Below are positions 30,121 to 36,042 of a stretch of DNA of 64,000 nt, in pieces. The notes under the pieces were generated by a model. The model made no database searches. It worked only from the letters and a program-made list of their open reading frames with translations, and was not told where the DNA came from. Position 1 is the first letter of the stretch, and the number at the start of each line of letters is the position of its first letter. This stretch comes from Myxococcus eversor (GTDB taxonomy: Bacteria; Myxococcota; Myxococcia; Myxococcales; Myxococcaceae). Position numbers and translations under genes: made by a program. Location: assembly GCF_010894455.1 (NCBI RefSeq), contig NZ_JAAIXY010000016.1, positions 124,001 to 188,000 on the forward strand, written 5' to 3'.

Positions 30121-30181
30121 TCGCGGCGCTGTCAGGGATGAAAATCAACCGCCGTAGATTCCCCCAGAAAGGAGCGGTGAC

Positions 30182-30340
30182 ATGACAACGGCGAAGATGC
30201 AGTCGAACGAGACGAAGCGCAGCTATCGACACAACCTCTGGTCCCAGTTCGACGCCGCCTCCTGCTCCTTCTCGAGCACAGGCTCGATTCGCAACGTGGG
30301 ATTCAGCCACCTTCACGGCCATCCGCCCGTACCCTGCTGA
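30182..30340 (+). CDS. 52-residue ORF before the tRNA array, possible leader peptide
   Basis: An AAAGGAG site seven bases before the ATG makes translation likely. The peptide starts M-T-T-A-K-M-Q-S-N-E and ends H-P-P-V-P-C. It is Ser- and His-rich and uses all 20 standard amino acids by residue 48, including Trp20, Cys28 and four His. Thirty-eight bases after its stop is a hairpin terminator, then the tRNA array. I suggest a leader peptide whose translation reports tRNA shortage. A peptide substrate of the nearby ThiF-like enzyme is the main alternative. No known family is recognised. Confidence 0.6.
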   Translation: MTTAKMQSNETKRSYRHNLWSQFDAASCSFSSTGSIRNVGFSHLHGHPPVPC

Positions 30341-30377
30341 CGCTCGCGCTTCGTCACTGACGCGCCAAGCCACGCAG

Positions 30378-30411
30378 AGGCCGGGCTCCCATCCAGGGGA
30401 CCCGGCCTTTC
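30378..30411 (+). terminator. hairpin terminator/attenuator candidate ahead of the tRNA array
   Basis: AGGCCGGG (30378-30385) pairs with CCCGGCCT (30401-30408) across a 15-base loop, and a short TTT follows. It ends 22 bases before the first tRNA. It could stop transcription from the upstream genes, or act as an attenuator controlled by translation of the 52-residue ORF. Confidence 0.65.
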
Positions 30412-30432
30412 GGCTTTCGGGCCTCCGATCCA

Positions 30433-30517
30433 GGGGACGTAGAGCGTTACGGCAGACGCGCGGGCCTGTAGAGCCCGAGCCCGACAGGGCCTGCTGGGTT
30501 CAACTCCCAGCGTCCCC
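30433..30517 (+). tRNA. tRNA-Tyr(GTA), class II
   Basis: A perfect 7-bp acceptor stem (GGGGACG/CGTCCCC), D-stem GCGT/ACGC, anticodon loop CTGTAGA (GTA), a long variable hairpin GCCC-GACA-GGGC as in bacterial tRNA-Tyr, and T-arm with TTCAACT. Discriminator A; CCA is not encoded. Confidence 0.88.
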
Positions 30518-30567
30518 ATGCTCCGCACGAGCAGGGCTGCATCATCCAAACCCAGACGTAATTTTCC

Positions 30568-30637
30568 AGGGGTATAGCTCAAAGGCAGAGCACTCGCTTG
30601 ATAAGCGGGTGATCCCGGTTCGACTCCGGGTACCCCG
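30568..30637 (+). tRNA. tRNA-Ile(GAT)
   Basis: Acceptor strand AGGGGTA faces TACCCCG with an A-G mismatch at the first pair. D-arm GCTC/GAGC, anticodon arm CTCGC/GCGGG with loop TTGATAA (GAT), T-arm CCCGG/CCGGG with TTCGACT. The variable loop has four bases. Confidence 0.82.
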
Positions 30638-30644
30638 ACTCCAT

Positions 30645-30716
30645 GTTGGCCGAAGGCGATTGGTGAGCCACCGGGATGTGACCCCGGGGAAGAGGGTTCG
30701 ATTCCCTCCGGTCAAC
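30645..30716 (+). tRNA. tRNA-His(GTG)
   Basis: Seven acceptor pairs with one G-U, D-stem GGC/GCC, anticodon stem CCGGG/CCCGG with loop ATGTGAC (GTG), T-arm GAGGG/CCCTC. Discriminator C is as in tRNA-His, but the base before position 1 is T, so the usual G-1 identity base is not encoded. Confidence 0.8.
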
Positions 30717-30795
30717 CTGACAGTCCCAGCTCTCTGACAACTGAATCGTCGTGGTGAATGCACGCCGCCTGCTCACACAGGGGTGGCGGCAAAAT

Positions 30796-30865
30796 GCCTC
30801 CGTAGCTCATTGGTAGAGCATCCGCCTCTTAAGCGGACGGCGAGGGTTCGAATCCCTCCGGAGGT
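30796..30865 (+). tRNA. tRNA-Lys(CTT)
   Basis: Acceptor GCCTCCG/CGGAGGT (G-U first pair), D-arm GCTC/GAGC, anticodon stem TCCGC/GCGGA with loop CTCTTAA, T-arm GAGGG/CCCTC with TTCGAAT, discriminator A. The 79 bases before it hold nothing I can name. Confidence 0.88.
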
Positions 30866-30883
30866 ACTCGAAGCAGCAGCAAC

Positions 30884-30953
30884 GCGGGTGTCGTCCAGCG
30901 GCAGGATGGCGGTTTCCCATACCGTCGACACGGGTTCGAATCCCGTCACCCGC
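30884..30953 (+). tRNA. tRNA-Gly(CCC)
   Basis: Acceptor GCGGGTG/CACCCGC is perfect. D-arm GTCC/GGAT, anticodon loop TTCCCAT (CCC) on a 5-bp stem with one G-U, T-arm ACGGG/CCCGT with TTCGAAT, and discriminator T as expected for glycine. Confidence 0.86.
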
Positions 30954-30973
30954 TTCACATGTGTCACTTCCAT

Positions 30974-31044
30974 ACCGGAGTCGTCTAATCAGCAGGATGG
31001 CGGATTCTGACTCCGCAGGCGCAGGTGCGATTCCTGCCTCCGGT
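30974..31044 (+). tRNA. tRNA-Gln(CTG)
   Basis: Acceptor ACCGGAG/CTCCGGT, anticodon stem GCGGA/TCCGC with loop TTCTGAC (CTG), T-stem GCAGG/CCTGC. The T-loop is TGCGATT, with G where position 55 is normally T, so the usual pseudouridine site is absent. Confidence 0.82.
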
Positions 31045-31064
31045 TCTCTCTTCACGCAGCACAT

Positions 31065-31135
31065 TCCCCGGTAGCTCAATGGCAGAGCGCGCGGCTGTTA
31101 ACCGCGAAGTTGGGGGTTCGAGTCCCTCCCGGGGA
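31065..31135 (+). tRNA. tRNA-Asn(GTT)
   Basis: Acceptor TCCCCGG/CCGGGGA, D-arm GCTC/GAGC with GG, anticodon stem CGCGG/CCGCG with loop CTGTTAA, T-arm with TTCGAGT, and discriminator G as in asparagine tRNAs. Confidence 0.88.
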
Positions 31136-31154
31136 GCTTGCAACAGACGCAACT

Positions 31155-31223
31155 GGCCAGTTCCGCCCGGGGTGGCAACGGTCTGCAAAACCGTTTGGGA
31201 CGGGTTCGACTCCCGTATTGGCC
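31155..31223 (+). tRNA. tRNA-Cys(GCA)
   Basis: Acceptor GGCCAGT/ATTGGCC with one G-U, D-stem GCC/GGC, anticodon stem ACGGT/ACCGT with loop CTGCAAA, T-arm ACGGG/CCCGT, and discriminator T, the cysteine identity base. Confidence 0.86.
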
Positions 31224-31234
31224 TCACTTTCATT

Positions 31235-31306
31235 GCCGACCTGGCGTAGGTGGTCCGCGCGCCCGTCTGAAGAGCGGGAGGACTCGGTTCGATTCCGAGG
31301 GTCGGC
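31235..31306 (+). tRNA. tRNA-Phe(GAA)
   Basis: Acceptor GCCGACC/GGTCGGC, D-stem GCG/CGC with loop containing GG, anticodon stem CCCGT/GCGGG with loop CTGAAGA, T-arm CTCGG/CCGAG, discriminator A. Confidence 0.86.
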
Positions 31307-31330
31307 ACTTCGCAGCACGTTTCACTTCAT

Positions 31331-31397
31331 AGGCTGCGCTCCGGGAGCAGCTTGGACTCCAAATCCGAGCGCGCGGGGTTCAACTCCCTGGCGGCCT
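31331..31397 (+). tRNA. tRNA-Trp(CCA) with minimal D-arm
   Basis: Acceptor AGGCTGC/GCGGCCT, anticodon arm TTGGA/TCCGA with loop CTCCAAA, T-arm CGGGG/CCCTG, discriminator G. Only 14 bases separate the acceptor and anticodon stems. They form GCTC-CGG-GAGC, so positions 8-9 are missing and the D-loop has three bases. Confidence 0.78.
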
Positions 31398-31406
31398 GCT
31401 CGTTTC

Positions 31407-31479
31407 GCCCCTGTAGCTCAACTGGTAGCAGCACCGGTTTCGTAAACCGGGGGTTGTCGGTTCGAACCCGACCGGGGGC
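31407..31479 (+). tRNA. tRNA-Thr(CGT)
   Basis: Acceptor GCCCCTG/CGGGGGC, D-stem GCT/AGC with GG in the loop, anticodon stem CCGGT/ACCGG with loop TTCGTAA, T-arm GTCGG/CCGAC with TTCGAAC, discriminator A. Confidence 0.86.
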
Positions 31480-31506
31480 ACTTCACGCAACACGCAGTCG
31501 TCACAT

Positions 31507-31577
31507 GGGTTCGTGGCTCAATGGGAGAGCACTCGGTTTGCACCCGAGGGGTTCCGGGTTCGAGTCCCGGCGGATCC
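31507..31577 (+). tRNA. tRNA-Ala(TGC)
   Basis: Acceptor GGGTTCG/CGGATCC carries the G3-U70 pair that marks alanine tRNAs. D-arm GCTC/GAGC, anticodon stem CTCGG/CCGAG with loop TTTGCAC, T-arm CCGGG/CCCGG, discriminator A. It is the only member with U34. Confidence 0.88.
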
Positions 31578-31584
31578 ACTTCAT

Positions 31585-31657
31585 GCCCTTGTAGCTCAGT
31601 GGATGAGAGCGCACGGTTCCGAACCGTGAGGTCGCAGGTTCAATCCCTGCCAGGGGC
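31585..31657 (+). tRNA. tRNA-Arg(CCG)
   Basis: Acceptor GCCCTTG/CAGGGGC, D-arm GCTC/GAGC, anticodon stem CACGG/CCGTG with loop TTCCGAA, T-arm GCAGG/CCTGC with TTCAATC, discriminator A. Confidence 0.87.
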
Positions 31658-31681
31658 ACTCGCTTCAGCCAAAGCCATTCC

Positions 31682-31755
31682 GCTTCCGTAGCTCAGTGGA
31701 TTCAGAGCAGGCGCGTCCTAAGCGCGAGGTCGCAGGTTCGAATCCTGCCGGGAGC
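31682..31755 (+). tRNA. tRNA-Arg(CCT)
   Basis: Acceptor GCTTCCG/CGGGAGC, D-arm GCTC/GAGC, anticodon loop GTCCTAA (CCT) on GGCGC/GCGCG, where the outer G-G does not pair. T-arm GCAGG/CCTGC, discriminator A. A T-rich run (31769-31775) follows. Confidence 0.83.
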
Positions 31756-31776
31756 ACACACGTTTCACGTTTTTTC

Positions 31777-31846
31777 TGCGGGGAGAGGCTGGTGCCTCAC
31801 CGGGCCTCATAAGCCTGGCCTCCAGGGTTCGACTCCCTGCTCCGCA
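31777..31846 (+). tRNA. tRNA-Met(CAT)
   Basis: Acceptor TGCGGGG/CTCCGCA with a normal T1-A72 pair, so probably an elongator type. D-stem GAGGC/GCCTC with the four-base loop TGGT, anticodon stem CGGGC/GCCTG with loop CTCATAA, T-arm CAGGG/CCCTG. Confidence 0.82.
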
Positions 31847-31855
31847 ACTCTTCAT

Positions 31856-31927
31856 GCACGCCGAGCCAGCTGGAGACGGCGACGGTCCCACACACCGTTT
31901 TCGCCGGGTTCGATCCCCGGGGCGTGC
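31856..31927 (+). tRNA. tRNA-Val(CAC)-like with C33
   Basis: Acceptor GCACGCC/GGCGTGC is perfect, D-stem GCC/GGC, anticodon stem ACGGT/ACCGT, T-arm CCGGG/CCCGG. The loop is CCCACAC: anticodon CAC, but position 33, almost always U, is C. Confidence 0.8.
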
Positions 31928-31947
31928 ACTCGTATTTCCGTGGTCTT

Positions 31948-32020
31948 GCCGGTGTAGCCCAATGGGTAGAGGTGCCAGGTCGAGAACCTGGAGGATGCGG
32001 GTTCGACTCCCGCCACCGGC
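31948..32020 (+). tRNA. tRNA-Leu(GAG)-like with C33 and short variable loop
   Basis: Acceptor GCCGGTG/CACCGGC, anticodon stem CCAGG/CCTGG, T-arm GCGGG/CCCGC. The seven-base loop TCGAGAA places GAG at 34-36 with C at 33. The variable loop has only five bases, although leucine tRNAs are normally class II, so amino-acid identity is uncertain. Confidence 0.75.
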
Positions 32021-32076
32021 ACTGTCGTCGCAGTCCGTAGCCCGCAGTCGCAAGTCAGCAGGACATCCCGAAGTCC

Positions 32077-32149
32077 GTCCGCGTAGCCCAAACGGGAGAG
32101 GCCGCCGGCTCAAACCCGGCACAGTGCGAGTTCGACTCTCGCCGCGGAT
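32077..32149 (+). tRNA. tRNA-Leu(CAA)-like with short variable loop
   Basis: Acceptor GTCCGCG/CGCGGAT (G-U first pair), D-stem GCC/GGC, anticodon stem GCCGG/CCGGC with loop CTCAAAC, T-arm GCGAG/CTCGC. The variable loop is five bases (ACAGT) instead of the long leucine arm. Confidence 0.78.
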
Positions 32150-32170
32150 ACAACCGAAAGGCGTTGCGTC

Positions 32171-32713
32171 ATGGAGACGCTGGTTCTCAGTCAGTCCTTC
32201 GAGCCCGTCGCGCGGATTCCCTGGCAGCGCGCGGTGATGCTCATCTTCCAGGGCAAGGTCGAGGTGGTCGAGGAGTACGAGGACCGCTTCGTGCGCTCGG
32301 TGACGGTGGAGATCCGCATGCCCTCCGTCATTCGTTTCTTCCGCGGGCTGCGCAAGGGCCCCAAGGGCGTGAAGTTCAGCCGGGAGAACGTCTACCTGCG
32401 AGACCGCTGCCGCTGCCAGTACTGCGGCCTCAAGGTGTCTCGCGCTGAGGCGACGTATGACCACGTCCTGCCTCGGGCCCAGGGTGGCCGCACGTCCTGG
32501 GACAACGTCGTCATCGCGTGTGTGCCCTGCAACCAGAGGAAGGGCAACCGGACTCCGGAGCACGCGAAGATGGCGCTGCGCTGCGCCCCGGTGAAGCCCA
32601 AGAAGCTGCCGGACGCGATGCACCTGACGTTCGTCTTCGAGCAGGGCATGCCCATGTCGTGGGCCAAGTTCCTGAGGGACGTGGCGTACTGGCATGGCGA
32701 GTTGGAGGATTGA
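32171..32713 (+). CDS. HNH endonuclease embedded in the tRNA array
   Basis: The 180-residue protein has a basic N-terminal half with a K-G-P-K-G-V-K patch and a C-terminal HNH/zinc module. That module holds C-R-C-Q-Y-C-G, then Y-D-H-V-L-P-R-A-Q-G-G, W-D-N-V-V-I-A-C and C-N-Q-R-K-G-N-R-T-P. The His-Asn-Asn catalytic pattern and two Cys pairs are intact, so a metal-dependent nuclease is expected. The gene starts 21 bases after the last leucine tRNA-like unit and is followed by three serine tRNAs, so it is probably on the same transcript. Related HNH proteins are common in bacteria and usually of unknown target; a role in cutting or trimming array RNA is speculation. Confidence 0.88.
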   Translation: METLVLSQSFEPVARIPWQRAVMLIFQGKVEVVEEYEDRFVRSVTVEIRMPSVIRFFRGLRKGPKGVKFSRENVYLRDRCRCQYCGLKVSRAEATYDHVLPRAQGGRTSWDNVVIACVPCNQRKGNRTPEHAKMALRCAPVKPKKLPDAMHLTFVFEQGMPMSWAKFLRDVAYWHGELED

Positions 32714-32826: not shown

Positions 32827-32911
32827 GGAAGACCGACGCTGGAGGCCGGCGGCCCGTTTCGAAAACGGTGCGGGTGCATGACGCGCTCGGGGTTCGAGTC
32901 CCCTGTCTTCC
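32827..32911 (+). tRNA. tRNA-Ser(CGA), class II
   Basis: Acceptor GGAAGAC/GTCTTCC, anticodon loop TTCGAAA (CGA) on a 4-bp stem with a C-T next to it, a long variable arm containing GCG/CGC, T-arm GGGG/CCCC with TTCGAGT, and discriminator G typical of serine. Confidence 0.82.
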
Positions 32912-32921
32912 GCTGTGACTT

Positions 32922-33005
32922 GGAGCATGCGGGCCGGGTGGCCGGCCGCCTGGCTGGAAACCAGGAGAGCCCTTCGGGGCTCGTGGTTCGACTCCACCGT
33001 GTTCC
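32922..33005 (+). tRNA. tRNA-Ser(GGA), class II
   Basis: Acceptor GGAGCAT/GTGTTCC with two G-U pairs, anticodon stem CCTGG/CCAGG with loop CTGGAAA, a strong variable hairpin GAGCCC-TTCG-GGGCTC, T-arm GTGG/CCAC, and discriminator G. Confidence 0.86.
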
Positions 33006-33022
33006 GCTCGCTTCACATGTTT

Positions 33023-33109
33023 GGAAGTTGGACTGGCGATGGCGCCAGGCCCCGCTGCTACCGGGTGCGAGCCGGCCTTCCGGCTTGAGGTTCGAGTCCT
33101 CCGACTTCC
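33023..33109 (+). tRNA. tRNA-Ser(GCT), class II
   Basis: Acceptor GGAAGTT/GACTTCC, a six-pair D-arm CTGGCG/CGCCAG, anticodon stem CCCG/CGGG with loop CTGCTAC, variable hairpin AGCCGG-CCTT-CCGGCT, T-arm GAGG/CCTC, and discriminator G. Confidence 0.84.
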
Positions 33110-33164
33110 GCTTCCCTCCGGCCTCGGGCCAGGGGATTCCGGCCACCCGCCGGGATTGCGCGCT

Positions 33165-33222: not shown

Positions 33223-36042
33223 ATGGCGACGAGGAAGAGCGAGGACCAGGAGCGACTCATCGACCGGGACCTGACCGCGTTGGCCCGAGAGGGTCGGCTG
33301 CCGGCCGCGCATGGCGTAGACGCCGCGGTGACGGAGGTTCTGGGACTGCTGACGCGCGGTGGCAAACACCCGCTGCTGGCGGGAGACCCCGGCGTGGGCA
33401 AGAGCGCGCTCGTGCAGGAGGTGGCGCGCCGCATCGCCGAGGGACGCGTGGACGCGGAGCTGACGCAGTCGCGTCTGGTAGAGGTGTCCGTCGCCAACAT
33501 CCTCGCGCGCAGCACCCAGCGACAGGCCGCGGAGAGCTTCGAGGAGCTGCTGGCCCACCTGGCGCGGCACCCCTGTCCCATCGTCTACATCCGAGACCTG
33601 CCGGCCGCGCTGGGCGGGCCCCTGGCCCCCGTGGCCGTGCGCGCGCTGCGCACCGGAGGCCTGCGCTTCATCTTCGAGACAGAGCCCAAGCGCGTGCAGG
33701 AGCTGCTGCGCTCCGACGAGGCGCTCGCGGAGCGGCTGCACCTGCTCCCCCTGCACGAGCCCCCGCTGGAGAAGGCGCGCTGGATACTGGGCCGGGTGGC
33801 GGAGGAGCTGGAGCGCGAGCTGCGCCTGCCCATCGACCCGGCCGCGTGCGATTTGGCCCTGCGGCTGTCGTCCAAGTTCCTGCTGGCGCAGCGCATGCCG
33901 CGCAAGGCCATCGAGCTCTTGAAGGAGACGGCGGCGGAGGCCGCGAGCGCGGCCAAGGACCACGTCGGTCCCGAGGACGTGCTCACCCGCTTCTGTTCCG
34001 CCACGCGCCTGCCGCGCTTCGTGGTGGACGACGCCATGCCGTTGGACCTGGAGGAGACGGAGCGCTTCTTCGGAGAGCGGCTGCTCGGCCAGACGGACGC
34101 GGTGGGCGCGGTGCTGCGCTCGGTGGCGCTGCTCAAGGCGGGGTTGAACGACCCGCGCCGGCCGCTGGGCGTGTTCCTGTTCGCCGGCCCCACGGGCGTG
34201 GGAAAGACGCAGCTCGCGAAGCTGCTGGCGGAGTACCTCTTCGGCTCGGCGGACAGGCTGGTGCGCCTGAACATGGCGGACTACCCCAACGACGGTGACG
34301 AGAGCGTGCCCTTCGGCGCGTCCTGGGCCCCGGCGCTGGAGACGCGTCGCGGAGAGCTGAGCGCGCTCCTGGACGGCAAGGTGTTCTCCGTGCTGCTGCT
34401 CGACGAGTTCGAGAAGGCCGCGCGCAGCGTGCACGACCGCTTCCTCCAGCTCTTCGACGAGGGCACCTTCGTCAACGGCGCGGGCGAGGTCGTCTCGTGC
34501 AACAACACGCTCATCGTCGCCACGTCCAACGTGGGCGCGGAGGTGTACCGGGAGCCCGCCATGGGCTTCGCGGGCACCAAGCGCGCGGACGAGATGGTGT
34601 CGGAGGTCGACCGCCGCATCGGCGAGGCCTTCCGCCCCGAGTTCCTCAACCGCTTCGACGCCATCTGTCACTTCCAGCCCCTGTCCAAGGTGGACATCCG
34701 CAAAATCGCGCAGCGCGAGGTCGGCCGCGTGCTGGAGCGAGAGGGCATCCGCGCGCGCTCCCTGGACGTGGAGGTGACGCCCGAGGTCGTCGACCGGCTG
34801 GTGGAGCGCGGCTACTCGCCCCAGTTCGGCGCGCGCTACCTCCAGCGGGAAATCGAGAAGACGCTCACCGCGGCGCTGGCCGTGGAGATTGCGCGCAAGC
34901 CGCTGCCCCCTGGCACCCCCGTGCGCGTGGAAGCACGCCCCGGAGGCCGGGTCATCGCGGTGGCCGAGCCCGCCGCCCCACTGCCCTCCCCCACCGCGCA
35001 GCTGCTGTTGCCGTCCGCACGGGCGACGCCGGTGAAGCGGCGGCTGGACCGCAAGTCGCTGCTGGTGGAGATGGACCGGCTGGTGGGCAAGGCCCGCTCG
35101 CTGGCGGCCTCCGCTGGGCGGCCGGAGATGGAGGAGCGCCGCACGTCCCTGCTGACGGAGACGCAGGCGCCCAACCTCTGGGACGACCCCACGCACGCGG
35201 CGGATGTCATCCGGGCCTTCCGGACAGTCGAGGCCCACCTCAACGAGATGGAGCGACTGGAGGCCGCGTGTCTCTTCGGGCGGCGCCTGGTGCGCGAGGC
35301 GAAGAACGAAGTGCAGCTCGCCTCCGCGGCCCGGCAGGTTGAAGACGTCGCGCGCGAGGTGCAGATGGCGGAGGCGCTCCACGCCTCCGGCTCCACCACC
35401 CTGGACAATGAAGCGCTGGTGGACATCTGCGCGAGCGACTCGGCGGAGACACAGGAGGCGTGGGTGCAGGAATTGGCCACCATGTACCTGGGCTGGGCGC
35501 AGCGGCGCGGCTACGAGGCGGTAGCGGTGGCGGAAGCCGACGAGCCGGCCCGCGTCGTGGTGCGCATCGCCGGCCCCGGAGCCTACGGCTTCCTCGCGGG
35601 CGAGGCGGGCATGCACCGACGGCTGGAGGACGAGAAGCGCCAGCGCGCCTATGTCCGCGTGCACCGGGGCGGCGCTCTCTCGGAGGAGGAGCTGGAGCTG
35701 CTGGAGGTGCTGGGCCGGCCCGTGAAGAGCCATGAGGGCACCTATCTCCAGCGCGTGCGCACCGAGGTGACGGTGAAGGACGAGTCCACCGGCCGGGTGC
35801 TGACGCTCACGGGCGCGGGCGAATTGGACGAGCTGAAGGACATCGCCGCTCGCGTGGTGGCCGGACAGGGCGGAAGCACGGACGAGGTGCGGCGCTACTA
35901 CCTGGGCCGCAGCGCGCGGGTGGAGGACCCTCGCACCGGCGCCGGGACTCCTCGCGTGAAGGACGTGCTGCGCGGCGAGCTGGACGTGTTCATCGCCGCG
36001 TGGATTTCGCGCCCGCCGTCGGAGCCCCCGCTGGGGAGCTGA
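33223..36042 (+). CDS. ClpA/B-like double AAA+ unfoldase fused to an RF2-like domain without GGQ
   Basis: The 939-residue protein begins directly with AAA+ module 1 (Walker A G-D-P-G-V-G-K-S at 54-61); no Clp N-domain is present. Module 2 has G-P-T-G-V-G-K-T near 322-329, L-L-L-D-E-F-E-K as Walker B, and a ClpB-type C-terminal subdomain with G-A-R-Y-L-Q-R-E-I-E. From about residue 607 it resembles release factor 2: W-D-D-P in the first helix region, M-Y-L-G-W-A-Q-R-R-G-Y, A-Y-G-F-L-A-G-E-A-G-M-H-R, and V-E-D-P-R-T-G at the end. The peptidyl-hydrolase loop that should read G-A-G-G-Q is S-H-E-G-T-Y-L-Q (about 835-842), so hydrolysis is not expected. It follows the serine tRNAs by 113 bases. I infer recognition of stalled or damaged ribosomes coupled to ATP-driven remodelling. 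Confidence 0.9.
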   Translation: MATRKSEDQERLIDRDLTALAREGRLPAAHGVDAAVTEVLGLLTRGGKHPLLAGDPGVGKSALVQEVARRIAEGRVDAELTQSRLVEVSVANILARSTQRQAAESFEELLAHLARHPCPIVYIRDLPAALGGPLAPVAVRALRTGGLRFIFETEPKRVQELLRSDEALAERLHLLPLHEPPLEKARWILGRVAEELERELRLPIDPAACDLALRLSSKFLLAQRMPRKAIELLKETAAEAASAAKDHVGPEDVLTRFCSATRLPRFVVDDAMPLDLEETERFFGERLLGQTDAVGAVLRSVALLKAGLNDPRRPLGVFLFAGPTGVGKTQLAKLLAEYLFGSADRLVRLNMADYPNDGDESVPFGASWAPALETRRGELSALLDGKVFSVLLLDEFEKAARSVHDRFLQLFDEGTFVNGAGEVVSCNNTLIVATSNVGAEVYREPAMGFAGTKRADEMVSEVDRRIGEAFRPEFLNRFDAICHFQPLSKVDIRKIAQREVGRVLEREGIRARSLDVEVTPEVVDRLVERGYSPQFGARYLQREIEKTLTAALAVEIARKPLPPGTPVRVEARPGGRVIAVAEPAAPLPSPTAQLLLPSARATPVKRRLDRKSLLVEMDRLVGKARSLAASAGRPEMEERRTSLLTETQAPNLWDDPTHAADVIRAFRTVEAHLNEMERLEAACLFGRRLVREAKNEVQLASAARQVEDVAREVQMAEALHASGSTTLDNEALVDICASDSAETQEAWVQELATMYLGWAQRRGYEAVAVAEADEPARVVVRIAGPGAYGFLAGEAGMHRRLEDEKRQRAYVRVHRGGALSEEELELLEVLGRPVKSHEGTYLQRVRTEVTVKDESTGRVLTLTGAGELDELKDIAARVVAGQGGSTDEVRRYYLGRSARVEDPRTGAGTPRVKDVLRGELDVFIAAWISRPPSEPPLGS

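Follow-up and report, generated by a model that had tools for sequence, protein, structure and literature searches.

Leader open reading frames with codon content matched to the downstream tRNA genes as candidate attenuators of tRNA arrays in Myxococcus and related genera

Bacterial tRNA arrays are usually treated as mobile or anti-defence cargo. The array that we describe here resembles the mycobacterial tRNA array units, for which an anti-defence role has been proposed: these are dense, carry an embedded HNH gene, are redundant with the housekeeping tRNAs and sometimes include release-factor-like genes, and a text search of both reports found no leader or attenuator (PMC5966550, PMC12803027). 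It also resembles the trn operon of Anabaena, a long array of spare tRNAs that is normally silent and is induced by translational stress, hence a precedent for a stress-induced spare set; control is exerted there by the repressor TrcR and, as far as the accessible part of that report goes, a leader ORF matched to the tRNAs is not reported (PMC10272220). With respect to mechanism, the closest relative is the ribosome-mediated attenuation of ilvB1 in M. tuberculosis, where a ribosome that has reached the stop codon covers about 26 nt, the antiterminator is blocked and the terminator forms, while stalling reverses the outcome (PMC13236596; for the theory, PMC1183508). As in amino-acid biosynthetic operons of this type (PMC13236596), the myxobacterial loci present a leader ORF whose putatively regulatory codons correspond to what the operon yields; unlike them, the leaders precede, and would putatively control, tRNA gene arrays instead of enzymes, and the proposed sensor addresses up to about 20 amino acids over about 45 codons, with a content that changes from one segment to the next along with the tRNAs present. 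At whiB7/wblC, too, a terminator stands behind a uORF, and ribosome stalling induces a stress response according to work cited in PMC13236596. The gene behind the whiB7 leader encodes, in contrast, a protein regulator. We know of no whiB7/wblC leader that is matched to tRNA gene content, and our literature search, which covered subscription journals only in part, turned up no published case of a tRNA array under the control of a leader or attenuator.

The window is a stretch of 64,000 nucleotides from an 11.4 Mb Myxococcus genome (G000:C32:124001-188000); the features of the window described below lie on its + strand. The leader ORF comprises 52 codons (30182-30340, ATG at 30182, TGA at 30338-30340), of which codons 2 to 46 or so would form the sensor portion; it follows a ribosome-binding site read from the sequence (GAAAGGAGC, 30167-30175) and a promoter-like element (30131-30157) consisting of GTCAGG at 30131-30136, a 16-base spacer and CGTAG at 30153-30157. 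The interval between stop codon and terminator holds a spacer hairpin, P1 (30342-30370), and is followed by a terminator-like hairpin with a weak T-rich tail (30376-30422, the hairpin itself at 30376-30410). Part 1 of the tRNA array (30433-32151; ARAGORN, Rfam) starts with tRNA-Tyr at 30433 and continues with Ile, His, Lys, Gly, Gln, Asn, Cys, Phe, Trp, Thr, Ala, Arg, Arg, Met, Val, Leu and Leu; the gene of an HNH endonuclease (32171-32713; PF14279, 6.9e-16) lies within the array, and part 2 (32827-33111) adds three serine tRNAs with the anticodons CGA, GGA and GCT. ARAGORN reported 20 tRNAs in the window, the third serine tRNA (CGA, 32827-32911) coming from Rfam and a further ARAGORN search, so that the array amounts to 21 tRNAs within 2.7 kb; it has no Asp, Glu or Pro tRNA.

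These tRNAs form a lineage apart, sharing about 69% identity with the genome's housekeeping tRNAs, whose genes lie elsewhere and already serve almost all the anticodons of the array. With dense tRNA genes redundant with the housekeeping set and an embedded HNH gene, the locus has the make-up of a tRNA array unit. The HNH gene occurs once per genome in almost all the class members, 80 in number, that have it, and its product is 100% identical in Myxococcus qinghaiensis and M. llanfairpwllgwyngyllgogerychwyrndrobwllllantysiliogogogochensis, whose genomes came nearest in the search. In cyanobacteria, relatives of the HNH protein, roughly 36-41% identical, are encoded near large tRNA arrays (L305, L306, L312-L316). 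It is worth mentioning that the window also encodes, at 33223-36042, a protein of 939 residues in which a ClpA/ClpB-like AAA+ ATPase is fused to a release-factor-2-like PCRF region (prfB positions 9-190), no complete catalytic RF domain being recognised in it; its family adjoins the array in 25 of the 40 loci compared.

A sequence-only reading of this stretch had proposed that the ORF, with its ideal ribosome site, its use of all 20 amino acids by residue 48 and a hairpin 38 bases after its stop, is an attenuation device that turns on the array when any charged tRNA becomes scarce. The elements themselves are as described: the product, MTTAKMQSNETKRSYRHNLWSQFDAASCSFSSTGSIRNVGFSHLHGHPPVPC, does use 20 of 20 amino acids in 52 residues, proline being the last to turn up, at residue 48, the ribosome site precedes the start codon, the hairpin, which precedes tRNA-Tyr, begins 38 bases after the T of the TGA, and the array carries the three serine tRNAs that had been named. 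The composition, presented as unusual for so short a peptide, is a mild oddity when taken alone, as 52 residues would include all 20 amino acids with a chance of about 1% (composition of the window genes) to 4% (average protein composition), and among the window's 57 ATG ORFs that are 45-60 codons long, 1 does so. Coverage of all 20 amino acids is not kept in relatives, and we rejected it as a design rule: the full set is present in just 2 of the first 35 homologues, and many have 17, an outcome that the sequence-only reading had itself named as refuting it. What a homologue lacks, however, is for the most part amino acids without a tRNA in its segment, so that the conserved property is the coverage of those tRNAs which the array itself carries. 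The leader of the window contains a single Asp and a single Glu, for which the array has no cognate tRNA, and its three Pro all stand in the last five codons. The idea of an attenuation device for the array is strongly supported, in its core, by comparative evidence, and the proposed trigger narrows from any charged tRNA to the amino acids for which the array carries a tRNA.

Comparison between genomes brings out both the architecture and its conservation. The pattern GAAAGGAGCRGYRRNNATG, which represents the ribosome-binding site and start codon, locates about 120 leaders of this kind, and the module precedes array segments in 48 of the 96 genomes of the family, in 8 genera; a control pattern gave 0 matches. 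The module consists, in order, of a promoter-like TGTCAGG-N15/16-CGT, a strong ribosome-binding site, an ORF of 22-62 codons, a hairpin, a terminator and the tRNAs. A protein search located the 52-residue ORF in most Myxococcus genomes, in up to three or four copies each, nearly all of them directly upstream of tRNA array segments, and in other genera (Hyalangium-, Corallococcus- and Citreicoccus-type genomes, among others) a different ORF occupies the same place between the same flanks, namely TGTCAGG-N15/16-CGT, the GAAAGGAGCGG ribosome-binding site, a Pro-rich ORF end before TGA, and the hairpin, terminator and tRNAs. As in known attenuators, a short, translated-looking leader ORF with its ribosome-binding site stands upstream of the array genes. 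We extracted 119 distinct leaders, 118 of which have tRNAs downstream; L049 (G023:C298) is a complete leader behind which no tRNA was detected and is possibly a remnant. TCAGG-N15/16-CGT lies upstream of 115 of the 118 leaders and, in the genome of the window, was found only at the window site; from its position and conservation we infer that it is a promoter. The longer form, TGTCAGG-N15/16-CGT, resembles a promoter of an alternative sigma factor, and a promoter scan found no sigma-70 promoter. No more than about 113 nt separate the stop codon from the first tRNA in 90% of the leaders, which leaves little space for a second promoter, and because this short interval includes the terminator the array would most simply be transcribed through it.

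Several occurrences of the module deserve mention in their own right. Many arrays are broken up into segments that lie kilobases from one another, and each segment has a leader copy and often a tRNA-Tyr to itself (L034/L045 in G004, L048/L050/L055 in G014, L041, L044), and transposase-like genes lie between split segments. A record titled Comamonas sp. KCTC 72670 (L265, BNCN01000002.1) contains a Myxococcus-type HNH gene, leaders and array, so that its label is probably wrong. The predicted viral contig IMGVR_UViG_2897491509_000007 (L339) bears a leader and an 11-tRNA segment, and its leader peptide is identical to that of L058 in G025; this stretch is probably host DNA or the edge of a prophage. 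Distant arrays at L136, from another family, and L137 have a short ORF with a Pro-rich end and a GC hairpin upstream, without the standard ribosome-binding site.

The amino acids encoded in each leader correspond closely to the tRNA genes behind it. Among the 118 leaders, 709 of 714 tRNA amino acids of a segment are encoded in its own leader, compared with about 593 after shuffling; in other words, 5 remain uncovered against 121 +- 10 when arrays are shuffled among leaders (minimum 84 in 5000 shuffles) and 72 +- 7 when shuffling is restricted to homologous leaders. Measured as mean differences in frequency, the match of composition has z values of 17.5, 12.8, 8.1 and 5.6 for 118, 66, 25 and 15 leaders, the last two sets being the representatives left after removal of redundancy at 60% and 45% identity. 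Between closest pairs that differ in one tRNA, the leader whose segment has the tRNA contains more of its amino acid in 229 cases and less in 43, the p-value of a sign test being only indicative since the pairs are not fully independent. The shuffles within homology clusters and the contrasts of closest pairs rule out chance or phylogeny as the source of the match. The match is also specific to the frame: frames 1 and 2 leave 253 and 187 amino acids uncovered where 247 and 197 are expected, hence no signal, and the reverse strand has at most a weak one (110 uncovered against 143 in one frame). With little or no signal in the other frames, base composition is ruled out as its cause. The tRNAs were called at a relaxed ARAGORN threshold that may admit false genes, and one of the five uncovered pairs of amino acid and segment (Trp in L250) is probably a false call. 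As in attenuated operons, then, the leader codons are cognate to the product of the operon.

The second array of the same genome (G000:C47, L143) consists of two segments with tRNAs that are absent from the window array, Gly-GCC, Ala-CGC, Leu-CAG, Pro-GGG, Pro-CGG, Asp-GTC and Ala-GGC in one, and Glu-CTC, Glu-TTC, Arg-GCG and Val-GAC in the other. Each segment has its leader, MTTTNLTSPMNPEILNDTVSGIDALAPVALATALAPAPLGDTDGGRPPGT, rich in Ala, Pro, Leu, Gly and Asp, and MPTVNPMSPMNLKRKNDTVRGIAVLFANTEQDTASEEDEFLEGIASFRGAPPGL, rich in Glu, and these compositions match the tRNAs behind them; where a genome has several segments, their leaders share little relationship over most of the length, yet match their tRNA sets. 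The Corallococcus leaders, which have a variant ribosome-binding site and lay outside the set used to derive the rule, served as a held-out set. Where the segment contains tRNA-Tyr and tRNA-Trp, both Y and W are present in 4 of 4 leaders (...CRWRDFASYRLASPGS); in segments with Trp only, W is kept in 5 of 5, Y is lost in three and kept in two, and in one such leader, whose segment has lost tRNA-Tyr, the Tyr codon TAT has become the Phe codon TTT (...CRWRDFASFRLASPGS). Two further variant Myxococcus leaders also cover their own arrays. Taken together, these comparisons make it likely that we are dealing with self-inventorying attenuators, in which the leader encodes nearly every amino acid of the array tRNAs, sensor codons are gained and lost as tRNAs are gained, lost or split between segments, and a sensor with multiple inputs co-evolves with its output.

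One may wonder whether the peptide itself has a function. In a regulatory arrest peptide of the TnaC/SecM type, the Pro-rich end would stall the ribosome at the stop on a signal and the amino-acid content would be incidental; the C-termini are indeed rich in Pro just before the stop (PPVPC, PPGL, PGF, PSPF). An arrest peptide is, however, expected to be conserved under purifying selection, and dN/dS is about 1.0 (1.03) within the main group of leaders and 0.6 in the complementary group, values that indicate a weakly constrained peptide sequence and a strongly constrained content. The sequences diverge greatly between genera while coverage of the array amino acids persists, and the complementarity of the C-terminal codons to the terminator arm offers another reason for their conservation, all of which makes an arrest peptide very improbable. 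Likewise, a small functional protein, such as a trans-acting peptide or a RiPP precursor, that is simply carried along with the arrays could account for the good ribosome-binding site, the nearly constant length in one genus and the C-terminal Cys of that group, yet the ORF matches no Pfam family at the cut-off, the neighbouring genes examined include none recognisable as a maturation gene, and the mostly unrelated leaders of one genome nevertheless match their tRNA sets; we give this possibility hardly any weight. Both kinds of functional peptide were rejected on the dN/dS value of about 1. Equally remote is a leader RNA that binds the array tRNAs by codon-anticodon pairing in the manner of a T-box, without a ribosome. 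Its codons do match the tRNA set, 769 of 842 anticodons finding a codon, but this is 91% as against 99% at the level of amino acids, and GGG and AGG are nearly absent from the leaders despite the presence of Gly-CCC and Arg-CCT tRNAs, so that the codon-level match is partial. Ribosome-binding site and stop are conserved, moreover, and the match holds in the translated frame only. A T-box riboswitch proper was rejected, as Rfam 15 gave no T-box match up to E=1. A ribosome sensing the supply of aminoacyl-tRNA fits these data better than direct pairing between RNA and tRNA.

Not all parts of the ORF contribute to the match. Removal of the last four codons leaves 5 amino acids uncovered, as before, and removal of six leaves 6, whereas the last five codons alone leave 531 uncovered against 552, almost no matching signal; the last five or so codons thus appear to behave as an RNA switch, not as sensors. 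The terminator with which they may interact is, in the window, the hairpin AGAGGCCGGGCTCCCATCCAGGGGACCCGGCCTTT (30376-30410; about -28 kcal/mol, z -3.1); the short T run mentioned in the sequence-only reading is present but weak (CTTTCGGCTTTCG), and a generic terminator scan did not report this hairpin. Over 100 leaders the terminator averages -27.8 kcal/mol, and standard pairs occupy 98.7% of its pair cells in 38 of them, so that an intrinsic terminator lies between leader ORF and first gene, albeit with a weak T-tract throughout (mean of 3.9 T in 12). The P1 region, despite very different sequences, averages -15.4 across leaders compared with -9.3 for mononucleotide shuffles; the window's copy, taken by itself, does not reach significance (z 0.36).

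The candidate antiterminator arm is the 3' end of the ORF (30325-30337, GCCCG...CCCTGC), proposed on the basis of the minimum free energy fold, duplex energy and pair counts, and its partner would be the 5' arm of the terminator (30374-30390), common to both structures. In the minimum free energy fold of 30310-30395 the two are paired, and the ORF end forms a duplex of -19 kcal/mol with the terminator arm where other parts of the ORF reach -10 to -16; shuffled ORF ends give -15.4 and a median of 9% of shuffles are as strong, meaning that the ORF end is moderately stronger, and synonymous recodings of the last codons pair equally well. Partition-function folding of the ribosome-free RNA sequesters the arm with a P of about 0.8 when the edge of the ribosome lies at least 12 nt upstream of the ORF end, and 0 once it has passed. 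Across 38 diverse leaders, 86.3% of the antiterminator pairs are standard, against 24-56% with the partners slid, and nine cells have changed on both sides versus 4.9 in shuffles (1 of 500), this covariation coming mostly from one column pair (22/75, chiefly U-A to C-G), with 13/38 exceptions; RNAalifold on the diverse alignment recovered the terminator and nothing else. The complementarity argues with moderate, not decisive, strength for the ORF end as the antiterminator arm. Of the two structures, the terminator (-27.8) is the more stable at equilibrium, the antiterminator reaching about -20, and a switch must therefore rely on the order of folding. This stability and the weak T-tract might suggest that the hairpin is a fixed partial terminator, with translation of the leader setting the passage of the polymerase through general ribosome-polymerase coupling and its composition tuning a basal level instead of a starvation response, but such an arrangement does not predict the gain and loss of codons with the tRNAs of a leader's own segment, and we consider it very unlikely.

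It seems reasonable to argue, from the comparisons above, that the ORF probably serves as the sensor with which a ribosome-mediated attenuator governs transcription of the tRNA array. RNA synthesis would begin just upstream of the ORF, with a ribosome trailing the polymerase. When all codons are read promptly, the ribosome would arrive at the stop and cover the last five or so codons, the 5' arm of the terminator would pair with its 3' arm, and transcription would end before the first tRNA. If an aminoacyl-tRNA runs short or translation is inhibited, the ribosome would stall earlier, the exposed 3' end of the ORF would pair with the terminator 5' arm, the terminator would not form and the spare set of tRNAs would be transcribed. 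Because the codons in the body of the ORF match the amino acids of the tRNAs in its segment, each segment would sense the shortage of what it supplies, a negative feedback from which we infer that the cell may draw a physiological benefit.

In these bacteria, the spare tRNA set may answer starvation, antibiotics or tRNA-cleaving toxins. The loss of the Tyr codon along with tRNA-Tyr is an unusually clean case of a sensor that changes with its output, and the family would offer a ready-made attenuator with multiple inputs for study. If our reading is true, the sequence of a leader states, amino acid by amino acid, what its array responds to, a proposition that can be tested in Myxococcus xanthus.
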